DNA from: Roseburia hominis | GTDB lineage: Bacteria; Bacillota; Clostridia; Lachnospirales; Lachnospiraceae | Direction of reading: 5' to 3' | Length of the DNA stretch: 64,000 bases | Assembly: GCA_021771815.1 (NCBI GenBank) | Contig: JAETOE010000009.1 | Location: 29,121-93,120, forward strand | Shown: positions 39,257 to 45,996 of the stretch, one piece after another | Numbering within the stretch: the stretch's first letter is position 1 | How the letters are laid out: each line of letters starts with the position of its first letter | Position numbers and translations under genes: made by a program | Notes under the pieces: model-generated | What the model was told of the DNA's origin: nothing | Seen by the model: the letters and a program-made list of their open reading frames with translations, nothing else | Database searches by the model: none

Positions 39257-39285
39257 GTATATACGAAAAATAGCTTGCATACAAT
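39257..39285 (+). promoter_or_regulatory. Sigma-E-like sporulation promoter of spoIIID
   Basis: GTATATA (39257-39263), 14-bp spacer, CATACAAT (39278-39285), close to the mother-cell sigma-E consensus (ATA-type -35, CATACAAT -10). spoIIID is a sigma-E gene in Bacillus. Confidence 0.75.
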
Positions 39286-39314: not shown

Positions 39315-39443
39315 TTGAAAAGTTATATTGAGGAAAGAGCCATGGAAATCGCCAGATATATTATCGATAACAACACCACCGTGCGGCAGGCGGCGAAGCA
39401 TTTTGGAATTAGTAAGAGCACGGTGCATATAGAAGTAACATAA
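39315..39443 (+). pseudogene. spoIIID: spoIIID, 5' half, interrupted by an integrated element
   Basis: From TTG 39315 (AGGGG SD) the frame encodes LKSYIEERAMEIARYIIDNN, then TTVRQAAKHFGISKSTVH, the N-terminus and helix-turn-helix of SpoIIID. It then runs into element sequence (IEVT, stop at 39441). The missing remainder, KDVTERLAQVNPTLAAET onward, lies at 45855-45996. Host coding sequence ends at about 39427. Joining the two parts at the shared CA gives exactly 255 nt (84 residues plus stop), normal SpoIIID length. The break lies in the recognition-helix region, so the integrated form cannot make an active regulator. It is probably restored by excision. Confidence 0.92.
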
Positions 39444-39450
39444 TGGAACG
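39403..39450. other. attL of the spoIIID element
   Basis: Host arm 39403-39425, core CA 39426-39427, element arm 39428-39450 ending TGGAACG. The element arm matches the complement of the right-end arm at 15 of 23 positions. Confidence 0.75.
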
Positions 39451-39477
39451 GTTAAGAATATTAATATGATGCAGAGA

Positions 39478-39511
39478 AAAGCGGTATATCACAACGAGGA
39501 TATACCGCTTT
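39478..39511 (-). terminator. Terminator of the first XRE gene
   Basis: A perfect 13-bp stem AAAGCGGTATATC / GATATACCGCTTT with an 8-nt loop. On the minus strand it is followed by TTTTCTC and overlaps the gene's last codons. Confidence 0.75.
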
Positions 39512-39758
39512 CGTTATCTGAAAATAGGTAATTGAAATCGCAGTCCAGAATCCTGGTTAAACAAATCAGAAGGCTGACTGTTGGATTTTGCTTACCGTTT
39601 TCTATTTTTGAAAAGGAATAGACAGAAATATTAATTCCTTGTAGTTGCAATTTGGCAATCACATCTGTTTGCTTTAAACACCTTTCCTCACGAAGCTTTT
39701 TAATGTTCTGTCCAATATTGATATCATTTACTTGTATAATACGATTATCTTTTTTCAT
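39489..39758 (-). CDS. XRE-family HTH regulator (paralogue 1)
   Basis: An 89-residue Cro/CI-type DNA-binding protein. NIKKLREERCLKQTDVIAKL and SFSKIENGKQNPTVSLL form the helix-turn-helix. It is clearly paralogous to the next gene upstream (shared RIIQVNDI, IGxNIK, LQLxGINIS, KIExGxQNPTVSLL), and each has the same operator-like motif in its upstream region. It probably senses or sets the integrated/excised state, but the inducer is unknown. Confidence 0.85.
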   Translation of the reverse strand: MKKDNRIIQVNDINIGQNIKKLREERCLKQTDVIAKLQLQGINISVYSFSKIENGKQNPTVSLLICLTRILDCDFNYLFSDNESGISSL

Positions 39759-39801
39759 AAGTCCACCTCAAGCATAATTCTAAAGGGCAGATATTTCTTT
39801 G

Positions 39802-39819
39802 AGTTGCTCGAGAACGCAA
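39802..39819. promoter_or_regulatory. Shared operator upstream of XRE paralogue 1
   Basis: AGTTGCTCGAGAACGCAA. The same 18-mer with one change recurs at 40120-40137. Confidence 0.65.
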
Positions 39820-39828
39820 TAACAGGAA

Positions 39829-40074
39829 TTAGCATGAAAAGAGCGTGTTAAAATCACATTGGAATATTTGTGTAAGAGCAAATAAAAGACTGACAGTCGG
39901 ATTTTGCCGTCCGGCTTCGATTTTGGAATATGAGGAGATGGAAATATTGATTCCCAGTAATTGTAGTTTTGCCACTATATCTATTTGGCGTAACCCTTTG
40001 GATTGGCGTATTGTCTTGATGTTTAAACCTATAGAAATATCATTTACTTGAATAATTCTGTTTTCGTTTTTCAT
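39829..40074 (-). CDS. XRE-family HTH regulator (paralogue 2)
   Basis: An 81-residue helix-turn-helix protein about two-thirds identical to its downstream neighbour (RIIQVNDISIGLNIKTIRQSKGLRQIDIVAKL). A tandem duplication of the regulator and its operator explains the arrangement. It is divergent from the small gene at 40201, so the operator at 40120-40137 could control both. Confidence 0.85.
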   Translation of the reverse strand: MKNENRIIQVNDISIGLNIKTIRQSKGLRQIDIVAKLQLLGINISISSYSKIEAGRQNPTVSLLFALTQIFQCDFNTLFSC

Positions 40075-40119
40075 GACTTTTCACCTCATGAAAATATTCT
40101 ATCGGTAGGAAAACATAAT

Positions 40120-40137
40120 AGTTGCGCGAGAACGCAA
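40120..40137. promoter_or_regulatory. Shared operator upstream of XRE paralogue 2
   Basis: AGTTGCGCGAGAACGCAA, containing the dyad TTGCG-N6-CGCAA. It lies in the divergent region between paralogue 2 and the 40201 gene. Confidence 0.65.
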
Positions 40138-40200
40138 GTAATATTATAATTAAGAATACATAGAGTTGCTATGGATGCAGAGAAAGAAGGAAAAGATAAA

Positions 40201-40554
40201 ATGGCAGATGAGTATAACGGGGAATACACGAACAATGTACATAACAATGACAAGTTTAGCCAATATGAACAAGTATTTGAGAGGGTAAATTTGCAGTCAA
40301 TTGGACATTTTCTTAAAGAAGGTGAAGAAATCTTAAAGATAGATAAAAAGACGCTTTCGGAGCGGGAGCAAGAGGCAGACAGCAAGCTTCGTGAGGAGCT
40401 TTCTGCCATATTTGACAAGGAGACCGTTGAAAAATTGCTTGAGATCATTAGTTGCTATACAATGATAAAAGAGGAAATCCAGTTTTCACTGGGAATGAAA
40501 ATTGGGGCAAGAATGTTACAGTTATTAACGGATGATATAGATAAAGATTTTTAG
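40201..40554 (+). CDS. Element-borne hypothetical protein
   Basis: A 117-residue acidic protein. The C-terminal half (LREELSAIFDKETVEKLLEIISCYTMIKEEIQFSLGMKIGARML) resembles small helical proteins common in Firmicute phages and ICEs. AAGGAAA upstream supports ATG 40201 over ATG 40171. It is divergent from the XRE gene and shares the operator at 40120. Function unknown. Confidence 0.6.
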   Translation: MADEYNGEYTNNVHNNDKFSQYEQVFERVNLQSIGHFLKEGEEILKIDKKTLSEREQEADSKLREELSAIFDKETVEKLLEIISCYTMIKEEIQFSLGMKIGARMLQLLTDDIDKDF

Positions 40555-40608
40555 GAGTTAAAGAATACGAGATACTCTGTGATAGGGTATCTCGTATTCT
40601 TTATGATA

Positions 40609-41316
40609 TTAAGAATCAAGGGGCTGTTTTAATCTGTCTATAATGGCAGGAAGAAATGCAGTCACGGAATTATATAGTGCAACAATATCTTCCTCACTCA
40701 AAGTAAATTTATCATCCCCTGTTCCAATGATGTAGGATTGCGGTGAAGCATTATTAGATTCAGAAGAGGGAACAGTTTCCACATTCCAGTAAAGTATTTT
40801 CAGAATTTTTACAATATAAACTTTTCCTGCGCGTTTTAGTAATTCATGATAATTTGTATTATCTTCAAAGATTCCATTTGTATGTGCTATGGATGGATAA
40901 TCAAGTATTGATATACCACATAAAACTTTTTTTGGAACAGAGTAGGTGGATGAAATTCTCTGAAGCTCATTTAAATTGGGTTTGCGATTGCCAGTTTCGA
41001 AAGAAATATAACGTCTTTCCGTAAGGTCGGCTTTTTCGGCGAATTCTTTTTCTGAAAGGTTTGTTGATTTACGGAGTATTTGCAAGTTTTCATGTAATTC
41101 GTTAAGTTCACTTACTTCTGCAACTGTTTCTCCGGTTGCGAGATAGTCTGTTGATACATTTAGATACTTTGCAATCTGATAAAGGCGGTCAGCCGGAAAT
41201 GTTCCTTTTTTTAATTGGCTGATATAGCCGTTGGCGTATCCTAAATCCTTTTCTAATTTTGAGAGAGGGAGACTCCTTTGCTTGCAGATTATTTTCACTC
41301 GTTCTACGCTATTCAT
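40609..41316 (-). CDS. Two-HTH XRE-family repressor of the element
   Basis: A 235-residue regulator. The first HTH (residues about 5-60) reads VKIICKQRSLPLSKLEKDLGYANGYISQLKKG. The second (about 75-130) reads LQILRKSTNLSEKEFAEKADLTERRYISFETGNRKPNLNELQ. The C-terminal part is probably for dimerisation or sensing. AAGGAG fixes ATG at complement 41316. Two identical 12-bp direct repeats flank its -10, pointing to autorepression. It may be the immunity-type repressor. Confidence 0.8.
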   Translation of the reverse strand: MNSVERVKIICKQRSLPLSKLEKDLGYANGYISQLKKGTFPADRLYQIAKYLNVSTDYLATGETVAEVSELNELHENLQILRKSTNLSEKEFAEKADLTERRYISFETGNRKPNLNELQRISSTYSVPKKVLCGISILDYPSIAHTNGIFEDNTNYHELLKRAGKVYIVKILKILYWNVETVPSSESNNASPQSYIIGTGDDKFTLSEEDIVALYNSVTAFLPAIIDRLKQPLDS

Positions 41317-41347
41317 AATTTTCTCCTTAAATGGTATTGACAATTTA

Positions 41348-41396
41348 GAGTATTGCCTATATTATATTTAGAGTAAAGACAAATGAGTATTGCCTA
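41348..41396. promoter_or_regulatory. Direct-repeat operators of the two-HTH repressor
   Basis: GAGTATTGCCTA occurs at 41348-41359 and 41385-41396. A minus-strand -10 (TATAAT, complement 41361-41366) lies between them. TTTAGAGTA also repeats at 41344 and 41368. Confidence 0.65.
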
Positions 41397-41490
41397 ATTG
41401 AATTTTAGGGGAAAGCATAACAAATGTCAATAGATATCTGACAGAGAATACATAAATTCAATAATGGCACAAATTGCGCGGCAGGCAATG

Positions 41491-41626
41491 CCTGCGTACG
41501 AAGTCCACGTATGAGGAAAACCTTGAAATGAGGGAGTACATAGATGAGCATGGTTTCGGCAATAACAAAGAGCCGGATGCGCTTAAGAACTTCTATGACA
41601 GGTTCATGATGGATGATGAAGAATAA
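41491..41626 (+). pseudogene. Short gene remnant in the element
   Basis: Open frame LRTKSTYEENLEMREYIDEHG...FYDRFMMDDEE ending at TAA 41624-41626. The composition looks like real coding sequence but it lacks a start and SD. Probably the 3' scrap of a lost gene; not assigned to a family. Confidence 0.35.
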
Positions 41627-41712
41627 CCATATAGGGCGCGGATTGTGCGGAATACGGCTATAAGTTCCGGCTTTTACCAATACCAGAAGCATGATCTTGC
41701 GCTTTGCGCAGG

Positions 41713-41736
41713 GTGTCATTTTGGGGGAAATGACAC
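41713..41736. repeat. 9-bp perfect inverted repeat
   Basis: GTGTCATTT (41713-41721) and AAATGACAC (41728-41736) around TGGGGG, in the non-coding stretch ahead of oriT. It may be a relaxosome or single-strand-origin structure. Confidence 0.45.
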
Positions 41737-41953
41737 ATACATACAGACCAGACAAGCAATTTCCGGTCATTCTGATTGGTCTGCGCTTTTATAACTTCCA
41801 TTCAATAGCGGAGGAAACGACCGGAAAAGCCAAGCCTGCTTTAAGTCTGACGGCGACAGCGGAGCACACGAGCCCGCCGCGCACGCGGACGGAGTGTAAG
41901 CAGTGCAGCGGCGGGGGAAGGGTGAGCCGCGAAGCCGTGAGACTTGGAGCGGA

Positions 41954-42001
41954 GCGCGGGCGAAGCCCGCGCGTTACCCCCGGTATTGTAACTACGGGGG
42001 T
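41954..42001. other. oriT / replication origin of the element's Rep_trans relaxase
   Basis: ACCCCCG (41976-41982) and CGGGGGT (41995-42001) flank GTATTGTAACTA. The known ICEBs1/Tn916 nick site has the same form (ACCCCC...TAAC...GGGGGT). A second perfect hairpin GCGCGGGC-GAA-GCCCGCGC (41954-41972) stands directly before it. The matching relaxase gene follows. Confidence 0.75.
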
Positions 42002-42603
42002 ATAAATGCAACAGGAAACAAGAAAGAATGCAGGAAGAAAGCGGGTTTAGGGCGGTTTTGGGGTGTGACATTTTACTTTCAAAAAGTCACACTTTTACGG
42101 AAAATGGCGAAAAATCAATGATTTCATGGTATTTTTGTAAAAAGAGCCAAAGACTGTGGTCGGAGCGCCGCGGCATTATGTAGGGAACATTCGTAAACCG
42201 TTATTCGGGTGCGAGACCCGAGCCGTTGCTTTTGCGGAATCGGCTGTGAAGCAAGCCAAACATTGGATTTCCCGGCGAAAAGGTGGAGCAGGACGGCAAT
42301 AAACGGCGGGTGCGTTGACTGCTAGTAGTAGGGATAACGCGAAAAATCAGAGCGAAGCGAACAAGGGAAGGACGGAGCGCATAACAAATGTTTCCTTGAA
42401 ATCTTTAAGATATTTGTAAATTTTCTTTGATAGAATCCAGTTTTTAAAAATGGAAGGGGAAAAAAGTGGAAGTTTGAAGAGGATGGGGAAAAACAAGGTC
42501 AGACAATTAGCCCCCCTGGAGTCGGGGAAGGGGGCGCCGCCCGCGAGCCTGCGACAGGGCGGCAGGGGTTAGGAATGGTATACGAGCGACAGGAAGGAAG
42601 GGA
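42002..42603. other. Non-coding origin-proximal region
   Basis: About 600 bp without a convincing gene. It holds hairpins such as CGGGTGCGAGACCCG near 42207 and several G-rich runs, as expected of leading-region or single-strand-origin DNA upstream of a Tn916-like replication gene. Confidence 0.45.
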
Positions 42604-43830
42604 ATCAACATAGAACAGATAGAAGAAAGCGTTGCGACATCGCAACAGATATCTGGCGACATTATTCGGGAACGAAGGGAAAAGACCGGATTCAGTCAAA
42701 GGAAATTTGCAGATATCTTAGGGATTTCAAGGGAGCATTTGAACAAAATAGAGACAGGAGAACGCGAACCATCGGAAAAGCTGTTTGACTGCATGAATTA
42801 CTTTTTGAGCTTCTACGACCCAACGTCAAAAGTAGACATTATGCTTGATTACGTCCGCGTAAGATTCAGAACGACTAACTACAAACATGTGATAGAGGAC
42901 ATATTGAAAATAAGGATGAAATATATGCTCCGCGATGCACATTCGTTTTATGGGTATGATGCACAATTTTATTTTGGCAATATAGTTGTCATGACATCGG
43001 ATGATGAAGCAAAAGGCTGTTTGCTCGAACTTAAGGGGCAAGGATGCAGAGAGTATGAACGCATTCTTATCTGCCAAAAAAGAACATGGACACAGTTCTT
43101 ACAGGAAGTAAAAAATGAAGATGCAGTGATAAAGCGTGTCGATCTGGCAGTAAATGACCGCGTTGGGATTCTTGACATACCGGAAATGGTGGAAAAACTG
43201 AAACGGGGAGAATACTCTTCCGTCTTCCATCAGTACAAGTTTTATGAAAGCGGAACGTTGATAGGAGAAGGGGAAGAAAATGCAGATGCGCGGGGAAACA
43301 CTTTGTATATAGGTTCGTTAAAGAGCGACGTGTATTTTTGCGCATATGAAAAAGATTATGAACAGTATGTCAAATATGGAAAAGACATGAAAGAAGCAGA
43401 AATCCGGAATCGGTTTGAAATCCGGTTAAAGGACGACAGAGCAGAAGCCGCCGTCAGCGACCTGTTAACGCATGGAGACGCGGGGCGGACGGCGTTCGGA
43501 ATCATCAATAGATATATCGTGTTCTTGAAACCGGATGCGAACAGGGGAAAACGTTCATGGGATATAGACCCAAGGTGGAAACGATTCATAGATTGGGAAA
43601 TTAAAGGACTGCGGCTTGCCATAGCACCCAAGAAACAGGATGTGCTTGGCGATAAACTGAACTGGATCGCGAAACAGTGCGCGCCGACATTAAAAGCAAT
43701 AAGGATGTTAGATGCAAGCATGGGCGAACCCGACCGGATAGATGCAATCATAGACGCGGCACACATAAGCCCGAACATGCAGAAACTTATAGAACAGGAA
43801 ATGAGGGAGATAGAAGAAATAGTCAGATAA
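42604..43830 (+). CDS. Rep_trans-family relaxase / replication initiator (MobT/NicK-like) with N-terminal HTH
   Basis: About 408 residues. Residues 15-60 are an XRE-type HTH (SGDIIRERREKTGFSQRKFADILGISREHLNKIETGER). The rest is a replication initiation factor domain (YGYDAQFYFGNIVVM, KRVDLAVNDRVGI, ENADARGNTLYIGS, EIRNRFEIRLK), as in ICEBs1 NicK and Tn916 Orf20, which nick oriT. No ATG or GTG precedes the HTH in frame. AGGAAGG at 42591-42597 points to ATC 42604, where ATG would be expected. TTG 42739 is the first standard start and would delete the HTH. This may be a mutation or a weak start. Confidence 0.82.
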   Translation: MNIEQIEESVATSQQISGDIIRERREKTGFSQRKFADILGISREHLNKIETGEREPSEKLFDCMNYFLSFYDPTSKVDIMLDYVRVRFRTTNYKHVIEDILKIRMKYMLRDAHSFYGYDAQFYFGNIVVMTSDDEAKGCLLELKGQGCREYERILICQKRTWTQFLQEVKNEDAVIKRVDLAVNDRVGILDIPEMVEKLKRGEYSSVFHQYKFYESGTLIGEGEENADARGNTLYIGSLKSDVYFCAYEKDYEQYVKYGKDMKEAEIRNRFEIRLKDDRAEAAVSDLLTHGDAGRTAFGIINRYIVFLKPDANRGKRSWDIDPRWKRFIDWEIKGLRLAIAPKKQDVLGDKLNWIAKQCAPTLKAIRMLDASMGEPDRIDAIIDAAHISPNMQKLIEQEMREIEEIVR

Positions 43831-43903
43831 AGACAAAAGCCCGATTAATAATTGTAATCTAAGATGGCAGGAAAAGACAGAAAGAAAATTATATGGGGAA
43901 GGA

Positions 43904-43946
43904 AAAATGTGTCTTTTGACATTGAGCATAATGTTAGACACTTTTT
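43904..43946 (+). terminator. Terminator after the relaxase gene
   Basis: An extended hairpin in which AATGTGTC pairs with GACACTTT and TTGACATT with AATGTTA, around GAGCAT, then TTTTT. Confidence 0.6.
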
Positions 43947-43989
43947 CATAGTATGGTAAAGGAGGTAAATTGAAGGGGGAGATTTCATA

Positions 43990-44172
43990 TTGAAAAAACG
44001 AAAATTAAATTATCGTTTTCATAATCCGAATACAGTGGAAGAAACTGCCGATATGTTATATAAAATATTTATGGAGGCTAATGCAGGGAAGGTAGAAAGA
44101 GCGATAAAAGAGGAGTTGGAAAAGGAAAAGTTATTTAAAGATAATGATTACATATCAGAGCATTCAGCATAA
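43990..44172 (+). CDS. Small conserved protein next to the serine recombinase
   Basis: A 60-residue basic/helical protein (LNYRFHNPNTVEETADMLYKIFMEAN). Small proteins of this kind are common immediately upstream of large serine recombinases in Firmicute ICEs, where one may act as recombination directionality factor; that role is inferred. The start is TTG 43990 with an AAGGGGGAG SD. It has no cysteines or membrane span. Confidence 0.65.
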   Translation: MKKRKLNYRFHNPNTVEETADMLYKIFMEANAGKVERAIKEELEKEKLFKDNDYISEHSA

Positions 44173-44196
44173 AAAGTGTTGGGTGTTCTTTTTTTG

Positions 44197-44224
44197 TTTA
44201 CATTTTGGGTATATTGGTTATAAT
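44197..44224 (+). promoter_or_regulatory. Promoter of the serine recombinase gene
   Basis: TTTACA at 44197-44202 and TATAAT at 44219-44224 with a 16-bp spacer. It looks vegetative rather than sigma-E dependent. Confidence 0.65.
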
Positions 44225-44274
44225 AGAGATGTAACAGAACGACGCGAAATTAATGGAAAGGTGAAATAGATACG

Positions 44275-45996
44275 ATGAACATAGCGGCTTATTGTCGAGT
44301 TTCGACAGACAAAGACGATCAATTAAATAGTTTAGAAGCTCAGAAAGAGTTTTTTACAGAATATACCAAACGTACGGGAGATTTTCTTGTGAAATTATAT
44401 GCGGACGAGGGTATTTCAGGAACTAAAATAAAAAATAGGAAAGAGTTTCTTCGTATGCTTGCTGACGCAGAACGCGGTCTATTTGATATGGTGGTAGTAA
44501 AGGATATTTCGCGTTTTGCAAGAAACACGGTTGACTTATTGCAGAGTGTCAGAAAGTTAAAAGCACTTGGTATTGAAACGCAATTTCTCACTGCAAATAT
44601 GACAAGCATGGGAAATAGTGAATTTGTACTAACTATTTTTGGAGCATTAGCGCAGGAAGAAAGTGCAAATACATCCAAGCGTGTCAAATTTGGAAAGAAA
44701 ATGAACGCAGAAAAGGGACGGGTCCCGAATATTGTATATGGGTATGATAAAACTATAGGCGATTATTTTAATCTAAAAATAAATGAAGAAGAAGCCAAGG
44801 TTATACGACAAATTTATAAATGGTATACGGAAGAAGGATATGGTGCGGCTAAAATTGCTAATATGCTAAATGAAAAAGGTGTTAGGACAAAACGTGGTTG
44901 TAATTGGAGTCAAAACGCTACTTGTCGTATTTTAACTAATGAGCTTTATACAGGAAAAATTATTAACGGGAAGCAGGAAGTGAGCGATTTTCTAACAGGG
45001 CAGAGACAAGATAAAGATGAAACTGAATGGATGGTGACGCTTCGTCCAGAACTTCGCATTATTGAGGATGAGACTTTTGATAAAGCGCAGGAAATTTTAA
45101 GAGGTCGTCACAACGCTTTTAACATTAAGCATGAGCGTCAAAGTAACAAGTATTTGTTCTCGACGTTGATTAAATGTAAAGACTGCGGCTGGTCTTTCCG
45201 TAGAACGGTACGTACATATAAAAATACATATGTGCGTTGGGTGTGTTCGGGGCATAATGGTAGAGGTGCAGACAGTTGTCCGAATGCGATAGCGGTTGAT
45301 GAAGAAGAATTGATTGAGATTTTACAAGAATATTTTAAAAATATTTTAGGGCAAAAGAAAAAGATTATTGAACGCGTTGTGAGGGATTTTCAGCGCGTTT
45401 ATAAGGCAAAAGATGAAAACTTAGAATATGAAAAGGAATTAACAACAGAACTTTCTAAACTCCGTAAATCGCGCGAAAAATATATGGATATGTATACAGA
45501 TGATTTGATTTCCCGTGAGGAATTAAACGAGAAAATCGGAGGTATGCGAAAAAAAATTGAACACATAGAAAATGAATTAAAAATGGTATCGTATAATTTA
45601 ACAAAGGGGGAACAATTAGAAGCATTACTTAATAAAACTTTTAAAGAGGTTGAAGATATTACAGACATTCACGAAATTACAAATGAACAGTTAAAACGTA
45701 TCATTAAAAAAATCGAAGTAGATAAGGACGGAAACGTAGATATTTATTTGCGTCTAATTGGTGACTTAGGGCTAGAAGAAAGTGTAATTATTGATGATAA
45801 TTCAGTTAATGAGAGTGTAACAGAAAAAGCGTTCCAAAAAGTCACGACCGTACACAAGGATGTGACAGAACGTCTGGCACAGGTCAATCCGACGCTTGCG
45901 GCGGAGACGAGAAAGGTTCTGGATGTAAACAAGTCGGAGCGCCATATCCGCGGGGGGATGGCGACAAAAGAAAAATATCTGCATCAGCATTTTTAA
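44275..45996 (+). CDS. Large serine recombinase, reading in frame into spoIIID
   Basis: A 573-residue reading frame. The N-terminal resolvase domain begins NIAAYCRVSTDKDDQLNSLEAQ with the catalytic Ser, and VVVKDISRFARN holds the Arg cluster. The recombinase domain follows, then a zinc ribbon (CKDCGWSFRRT...CSGHNGRGADSCPNA) and a coiled coil (about 385-445). The native protein ends near VTEKAFQKVT. From about 45844 the frame continues into host sequence TVHKDVTERLAQVN, the SpoIIID C-terminus. In an excised circle it would instead end TVHIEVT and stop. The fusion tail in the integrated state could affect stability or activity. Confidence 0.92.
   Translation: MNIAAYCRVSTDKDDQLNSLEAQKEFFTEYTKRTGDFLVKLYADEGISGTKIKNRKEFLRMLADAERGLFDMVVVKDISRFARNTVDLLQSVRKLKALGIETQFLTANMTSMGNSEFVLTIFGALAQEESANTSKRVKFGKKMNAEKGRVPNIVYGYDKTIGDYFNLKINEEEAKVIRQIYKWYTEEGYGAAKIANMLNEKGVRTKRGCNWSQNATCRILTNELYTGKIINGKQEVSDFLTGQRQDKDETEWMVTLRPELRIIEDETFDKAQEILRGRHNAFNIKHERQSNKYLFSTLIKCKDCGWSFRRTVRTYKNTYVRWVCSGHNGRGADSCPNAIAVDEEELIEILQEYFKNILGQKKKIIERVVRDFQRVYKAKDENLEYEKELTTELSKLRKSREKYMDMYTDDLISREELNEKIGGMRKKIEHIENELKMVSYNLTKGEQLEALLNKTFKEVEDITDIHEITNEQLKRIIKKIEVDKDGNVDIYLRLIGDLGLEESVIIDDNSVNESVTEKAFQKVTTVHKDVTERLAQVNPTLAAETRKVLDVNKSERHIRGGMATKEKYLHQHF
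45830..45877. other. attR of the spoIIID element
   Basis: Element arm 45830-45852 starting CGTTCCA, core CA 45853-45854, host arm 45855-45877. Confidence 0.75.
45855..45996 (+). pseudogene. spoIIID: spoIIID, 3' half
   Basis: Encodes KDVTERLAQVNPTLAAETRK, then VLDVNKSERHIRGGMATKEKYLHQHF, the SpoIIID C-terminus including the conserved RHIRGG block. It has no start of its own and is expressed only as a tail of the recombinase or after element excision with the 5' half at 39315. Confidence 0.92.

Follow-up and report, generated by a model that had tools for sequence, protein, structure and literature searches.

The window considered here, the whole stretch of 64,000 nucleotides of Roseburia hominis DNA, lies on contig C53 of a 3.74-Mb genome (99.99% complete) and harbors a mobile element that splits spoIIID, the gene of an early mother-cell regulator of sporulation. 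The element carries a large serine recombinase and belongs to a widespread, horizontally moving family inserted at the same spoIIID codon. It was established from the sequence that spoIIID is split and that no intact copy exists; the family, its attachment (att) sites, its horizontal movement and a conserved module composed of a small open reading frame (ORF) and the recombinase were established in the same way. Excision in the mother cell, which would restore the only spoIIID, is likely according to promoter architecture and precedent, and the explanation as a whole was given a probability of roughly two in three. The features on which it is built are the following.

39257..39285, plus strand: putative sigma-E-type promoter of spoIIID, GTATA-N16-CATACAAT, read from sequence.
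39315..39427, plus strand: spoIIID 5' half, residues 1-37 plus the CA of His38, TTG start (PF12116 positions 1-41, E 1.6e-17).
39390..39455, plus strand: attL, CA core 39426-39427, element arm GTAAC-N6-GAACG (read from sequence and alignment).
43990..44172, plus strand: 60-aa ORF, candidate recombination directionality factor (RDF), with homologues within 18/18 complete elements by tblastn (window included) and 14/17 by blastp clusters.
44275..45996, plus strand: large serine recombinase ORF, in frame into the spoIIID 3' half (Resolvase, Recombinase and Zn ribbon; DUF4368 under cut-off).
45825..45880, plus strand: attR, CA core 45853-45854, host-side arm GTGAC-N1-GAACG (read from sequence and alignment).
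45855..45996, plus strand: spoIIID 3' half (PF12116 positions 33-81, E 2.0e-21).

SpoIIID is coded only once in the genome, with its halves apart: a PF12116 profile search of the whole genome gave two matches, covering model positions 1-41 and 33-81 on the same contig. The initial annotation had placed the halves at these same coordinates and had proposed their restoration in frame; joined at the common CA, the left side through 39427 and the right side from 45855 indeed formed an open 84-aa SpoIIID frame, the two cores being separated by 6,427 bp. The promoter was also present where it had been announced, and displayed the 16-base spacing of most training sites (43/51 spoIIID/spoIVA sites, see below). 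A second intact spoIIID, which had been named as speaking against the proposal, was absent genome-wide. Two marks of a skin-like element are thus present: a split sporulation gene whose frame is restored by precise removal, and an element that encodes a site-specific recombinase and is bordered by att sites sharing a core. The insertion proposed earlier was confirmed as site-specific, in frame and equipped with a recombinase and an RDF-like partner. An assembly artefact was ruled out, both halves being located on one contig and a single-contig genome (G293) displaying a 17.7-kb insertion at the same codon. The best sigma-K-type match of the window genome was uninterrupted (222-aa frame, scoring under the curated cut-off).

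The CA dinucleotide was common to attL and attR in 18/18 complete elements. Numbered from the base after the His38 codon, the two sites were identical in all 18 at AC (-9, -8), CA (-3, -2) and one G (+3). Between AC and CA, attL mostly displayed the bases of intact genes (GGTA or CGTA; 16 intact genes) while attR mostly displayed others; past CA, the host bases are carried by attR. The crossover was therefore placed at CA, and excision there left all 18 joined frames open (82-90 aa). Arms had the consensus GTAAC-N6-GAACG in attL (21 usable sequences) and GTAAC-N1-GAACG in attB (16 sequences), the outer motif being shifted by 5 bp. Large serine integrases typically have attP arms that exceed the attB arms through such a displaced outer motif, and these att sites display this geometry. 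The recombinase itself contained the domains of a large serine recombinase, with the conserved N-terminal serine at S10, invariant in seven sequences.

Insertions were recurrent within the genus. SpoIIID was matched in 53 of 62 same-genus genomes. Intact copies in relatives, for which the initial annotation had called, were found in part: 42 of the 53 were full-length and the other 11 were split, partial or broken. Seven displayed both halves, G019 and G041 only a 5' half ending in an attL-like junction, G024 a match interrupted by a contig edge and G017 a broken copy. The recombinase was recovered at 79-86% identity from the six other two-half genomes. Homologues of the RDF candidate were encountered in seven of 13 fetched genus loci and a fragment of it in one more, while six other genes of the window element gave no match in the genus loci. 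Full or near-full RDF-candidate matches were detected in eight genomes of the genus, every one with a split or half spoIIID. Partial matches beside an intact spoIIID were seen in G043 (locus L030) and G048 (L173), and in the former the spoIIID promoter and 5' end are also partly duplicated; these may be scars left by earlier insertions.

When GTDB genomes were scanned with seven recombinases, 206 relatives were obtained and the best 80 retained (including four query members, L033, L035, L036 and L041, taken as G033, G014, G016 and G044). The spoIIID 3' half was located directly downstream of the recombinase in 75 of these 80. L070 displayed attR and the first spoIIID codons before the contig ended, L108 stopped at the core, and L086 ran on without an attR recognizable by eye. 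The 3' halves were open in all 82 split loci found (77 distinct, four genomes being counted twice). The recombinase was present in 17/17 complete elements, and in L175 too, and cargo otherwise varied. The commonest cargo was a pair of genes for an AbiLi-like ATPase and an RloB/AbiLii-like protein (e.g. L018:12154-14122, L021, L034 and L064); AbiLi-like homologues in 25/91 loci and 10/17 complete elements suggest that spoIIID insertions carry phage defence. In L053, L081 and L172 (890-960), an attR-like end passes at CA into non-spoIIID DNA, which suggests secondary integration sites; in L172 this DNA precedes a Nudix hydrolase-like gene (by eye), and the genome concerned, G045, has an intact spoIIID elsewhere.

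Recombinases of L075 (Lachnospiraceae) and L087 (Oscillospiraceae) were 96% identical, their spoIIID halves 49%, and the recombinase was more similar than the spoIIID half in 1957 of 2485 pairs. Cargo of L089 and L094 was 99.0% identical over 95% of the compared stretch, but their spoIIID 3' halves differed at 22 of 31 synonymous sites; for L056, L057 and L073, cargo identity was 99.3-99.5% with 24-30.5 of 30-32 synonymous sites different. Because near-identical cargo thus occurs in hosts whose spoIIID approaches synonymous saturation, these comparisons indicate that the spoIIID-targeting family moves horizontally between divergent hosts. A classical domesticated skin element, i.e. a switch passed on vertically and selected for its role as sporulation checkpoint, would account for the common codon of complete elements and for the in-frame restoration in 18/18. 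It is very improbable in view of the patchy distribution in one genus (42/53 matching genomes full-length), the pair of Lachnospiraceae and Oscillospiraceae records with 96% against 49% identity and the differing cargo. The checkpoint envisaged in the initial annotation stood as regards a site-specific, in-frame insertion in a single-copy gene; as a fixed skin-like switch it conflicts with the full-length copies, the transfer between divergent hosts and the MobT-type relaxase described below. The elements look like travelling parasites which leave when SpoIIID is needed rather than like a domesticated switch.

Phage relatives were also encountered. Viral contig L114 (4992-6578 and downstream) displayed an endolysin-type gene beside a recombinase of 69% identity, and an uninterrupted attP-like site was recognized by eye after the recombinase in L111-L114, with the same CA core in L114. 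An attP pattern scan of viral contigs returned three contigs only, all among the relatives already found, and no recombinase relative at 60% identity or above was present in the phage and plasmid collections.

The control regions of the RDF candidate and the recombinase displayed three further features.

43926..43954, plus strand: predicted sigma-E-type promoter of the RDF candidate, GCATA-N16-CATAGTAT (score unreached in 100 shuffles).
44197..44224, plus strand: putative sigma-A-type promoter of the recombinase, TTTACA-N16-TATAAT (by eye; similar boxes in the leaders of relatives).
44223..44241, plus strand: half-site resembling attB, overlapping the -10 box in the leader of the recombinase and possibly serving as auto-operator (18/19 against the attB right-arm consensus set by eye).

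The motif (A/C)TA-N16-CATA, picked after the upstreams, which are related, had been viewed, was found upstream of the RDF candidate in 43/44 distinct upstreams, leaving aside one cut by a contig edge, against a mean of 0.6 and a maximum of 3 in shuffles; its 16-base spacing is that of 43/51 spoIIID/spoIVA training sites. A strict sigma-E matrix, trained on 37 spoIIID promoters and on 14 spoIVA promoters taken from 20 fetched regions, reached p<=0.05 in none of 23 recombinase upstreams. By its motifs, the promoter architecture of the RDF candidate is sigma-E-like, mostly off-consensus. GACAA follows the CATA box in 34/44 RDF upstreams (the window's own being without it), and a B. subtilis SpoIIID box consensus fits 15/44; SpoIIID feedback on the RDF candidate is a lead only. 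In many recombinase leaders, the attB right half-site recurs, overlapping the TATAAT-type box. GTAACAGA was present in 52/75 leaders (expected 0.14) and at least 15 of the 19 half-site bases in 44/74 (mean 15.2 versus 10.4 in shuffled sequences), which suggests that the recombinase represses itself via this half-site. SpoIIID control of the recombinase is an alternative, since the half-site letters resemble KRTAACARK, the SpoIIID box given for C. difficile (PMC5025042).

Under the favoured explanation, the recombinase would be made from its sigma-A promoter and would, alone, only integrate, the small ORF acting as directionality factor once its sigma-E-type promoter is switched on in the mother cell. 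Recombination of attL with attR at the CA core would then restore spoIIID. As this would occur in a cell that will die, the element would be kept in the inherited forespore copy. A chain from sigma-E through the RDF and excision to SpoIIID would take the place of the direct step from sigma-E to SpoIIID, and the RDF would have to be independent of SpoIIID, which could not be made before excision. In its broadest form, held to be fairly probable, the proposal is that spoIIID is a main landing site of a recombinase-RDF module which is carried by integrative mobilizable elements (IMEs), defence-carrying islands and phages in Lachnospiraceae and Oscillospiraceae, responds to sigma-E and removes itself from the mother-cell genome. 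SpoIIID would then be gated upstream of sigma-K, and the second mother-cell tier of carriers would be switched on by a genome rearrangement.

Prevalence was estimated from an even draw of 397 genomes of the same family, of which 247 matched SpoIIID, 241 over the family cut-off. Half-size best matches only (E between 1e-15 and 1e-24) were displayed by 29 of the 241 (12%, window included, counted from the table). Such a frequency would be high for a loss-of-function lesion and argues against a plain gene-disrupting element that targets spoIIID for its conserved DNA, without developmental excision, and leaves its host sporulation-defective. Retention of SpoIVA in seven of seven two-half genus genomes and the conserved sigma-E-like promoter motif of the small ORF also make such an element improbable. 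It would, on the other hand, be compatible with intact halves without selection, as some insertions are of very recent date, divergent hosts having cargo 99% identical, and with the stops present in the half-type match of G064, a genome of the same family. In favour of mother-cell excision, the four genus genomes at least 90% complete without a SpoIIID match (G001, G008, G012 and G037) were also devoid of SpoIVA.

Several observations weigh against mother-cell excision, beside the retrospective choice of the RDF promoter motif. A re-search of the other 28 half-gene genomes allowed 19 3' halves to be fetched; 13 had a close recombinase (71-86%) upstream, one of them seen only by its end at a contig edge, and six had no close relative of the window recombinase, so the 12% figure does not belong wholly to its family. 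Upstream of these six were two recombinases at 46-50% and one match at 26% (these three among G116, G330 and G232, i.e. loci L127, L131 and L145), and none within the fetched stretch in three; other recombinases may also target spoIIID. The half-type match of G064, as mentioned, carries stops and G176 is broken at another position. SpoIVA persists in four of five less complete SpoIIID-less genus genomes (G018, G040, G047 and G058), and G019, a carrier of a 5' half, is without it. The strict sigma-E matrix reached p<=0.05 in 13/45 RDF upstreams only, nine of the 45 being site-less. Assignment of the 60-aa ORF as a candidate directionality factor relies on position and conservation: it had no Pfam match over cut-off, and a search of solved structures with its alignment returned nothing meaningful. 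Finally, pN/pS was slightly higher in split copies (0.227) than in 16 intact copies (0.179). Since insertions are often recent, intact halves say little on selection, and decay of the split halves was rejected as an uninformative test of function.

Among insertions with both halves on the same contig, the smallest measured about 3.5 kb (G116) and the largest about 75 kb (G167). The latter (G167:C33:63511-138633) is perhaps a whole prophage or conjugative element at the spoIIID site.

The remaining genes of the window element are listed below.

39489..39758, minus strand: HTH_3 regulator, 89 aa (Pfam).
39829..40074, minus strand: HTH_3 regulator, 81 aa, paralogue of the preceding gene (68% identity; Pfam and comparison).
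40171..40554, plus strand: 127-aa ORF, function unknown (ORF list, Pfam).
40609..41343, minus strand: regulator with two HTH stretches, 244 aa (Pfam).
42610..43830, plus strand: relaxase, 406 aa, with HTH, Rol_Rep_N and Rep_trans, start codon uncertain (Rep_trans E 2.1e-54, Rol_Rep_N 1.6e-29); we take it to be of MobT type.

Pfam comparison of nine window ORFs gave relaxase and HTH families, without any family of phage structural or lysis proteins (a single match to a CI-repressor HTH was under cut-off), which skin-like elements need no longer have since gin, and without any conjugation gene besides the relaxase, no dedicated conjugation models having been run. Relaxase and integrase are thus combined on one element, as in MobT-type IMEs, and together with the RDF candidate and the regulators they make the window element look like an IME. 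A homologue of the relaxase was found in only one of 91 loci, the window itself, which makes it a cargo gene peculiar to this member rather than a family trait. The recombinase ORF has no stop before attR, so that the spoIIID 3' half forms its in-frame C-terminus, a point missed in the initial annotation. This read-through was displayed by one of 82 split loci, the window only; it looks like an accident of this member, and a functional recombinase-SpoIIID fusion protein was ruled out as a family feature.

The relaxase, RepA_N-like genes in 11/91 loci and the phage-like contig with a related recombinase and a free attP-like site would be expected if excision were that of an ordinary IME, integrative and conjugative element (ICE) or phage, occurring at low frequency in growing cells independently of sporulation, with only excised cells sporulating. 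The yin element of yabG is, moreover, excised in part of the population (PMC10747680). Such excision is nevertheless unlikely here: the conserved CATA-type promoter motif of the RDF candidate looks non-vegetative, and an element leaving before sporulation would be stripped from the resulting spores.

If mother-cell excision holds true, an early mother-cell regulator joins the few genes known to be rebuilt through programmed DNA excision, and the phenomenon would be common in anaerobes (29/241 half-gene genomes) rather than a rarity of Bacillus and C. difficile. Spores of such anaerobes are thought to spread between hosts. Annotation pipelines would be expected to record carriers as devoid of an intact spoIIID, and the integrases, att sites and candidate RDFs of the family form a well-defined collection of parts.

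MobT-type IMEs associate a Rep_trans relaxase with HTH and an integrase; the window element displays the same pairing but integrates into a sporulation gene. In the initial annotation, spoIIID did not figure among known excision targets and, among the matches listed in open-licence PMC full text (subscription papers and preprints being outside this scope), no description of an insertion in spoIIID was recognized either. In the parts consulted of a 2023 paper, interrupted sporulation genes comprised sigK, spsM, spoVFB, gerE and its own yabG (PMC10747680). The kind of element is therefore known; new, as far as this literature reaches, are the target, how common such insertions are, their horizontal transfer between families and an RDF that would have to act before SpoIIID. 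SPbeta in spsM, vfbin in spoVFB and yin in yabG are likewise mobile DNA excised from sporulation-associated genes, but they are prophage-like and occupy other genes, and no report of cross-family spread was noticed in the portions of the sources consulted (PMC4191935, PMC10747680). The gin element of Bacillus cereus ATCC10987 is a non-phage element in the very short mother-cell transcription-factor gene gerE and is excised with one recombinase and an additional factor (GirC/GirX); it differs by its size of 28.6 kb, its three recombinases, its target and its Bacillus host (PMC5595907). In skinCd of C. difficile, inserted in sigK, recombinase CD1231 has a sigma-A promoter and CD1234, a 72-aa RDF, is under sigma-E and SpoIIID (PMC5025042). 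The spoIIID element resembles it by a serine recombinase with a sigma-A promoter, a small RDF candidate with a sigma-E-type promoter and a split mother-cell regulator gene; skinCd differs by its target, its 19 genes and the SpoIIID control of CD1234, which would be impossible before excision of an element lying in spoIIID itself (PMC5025042).

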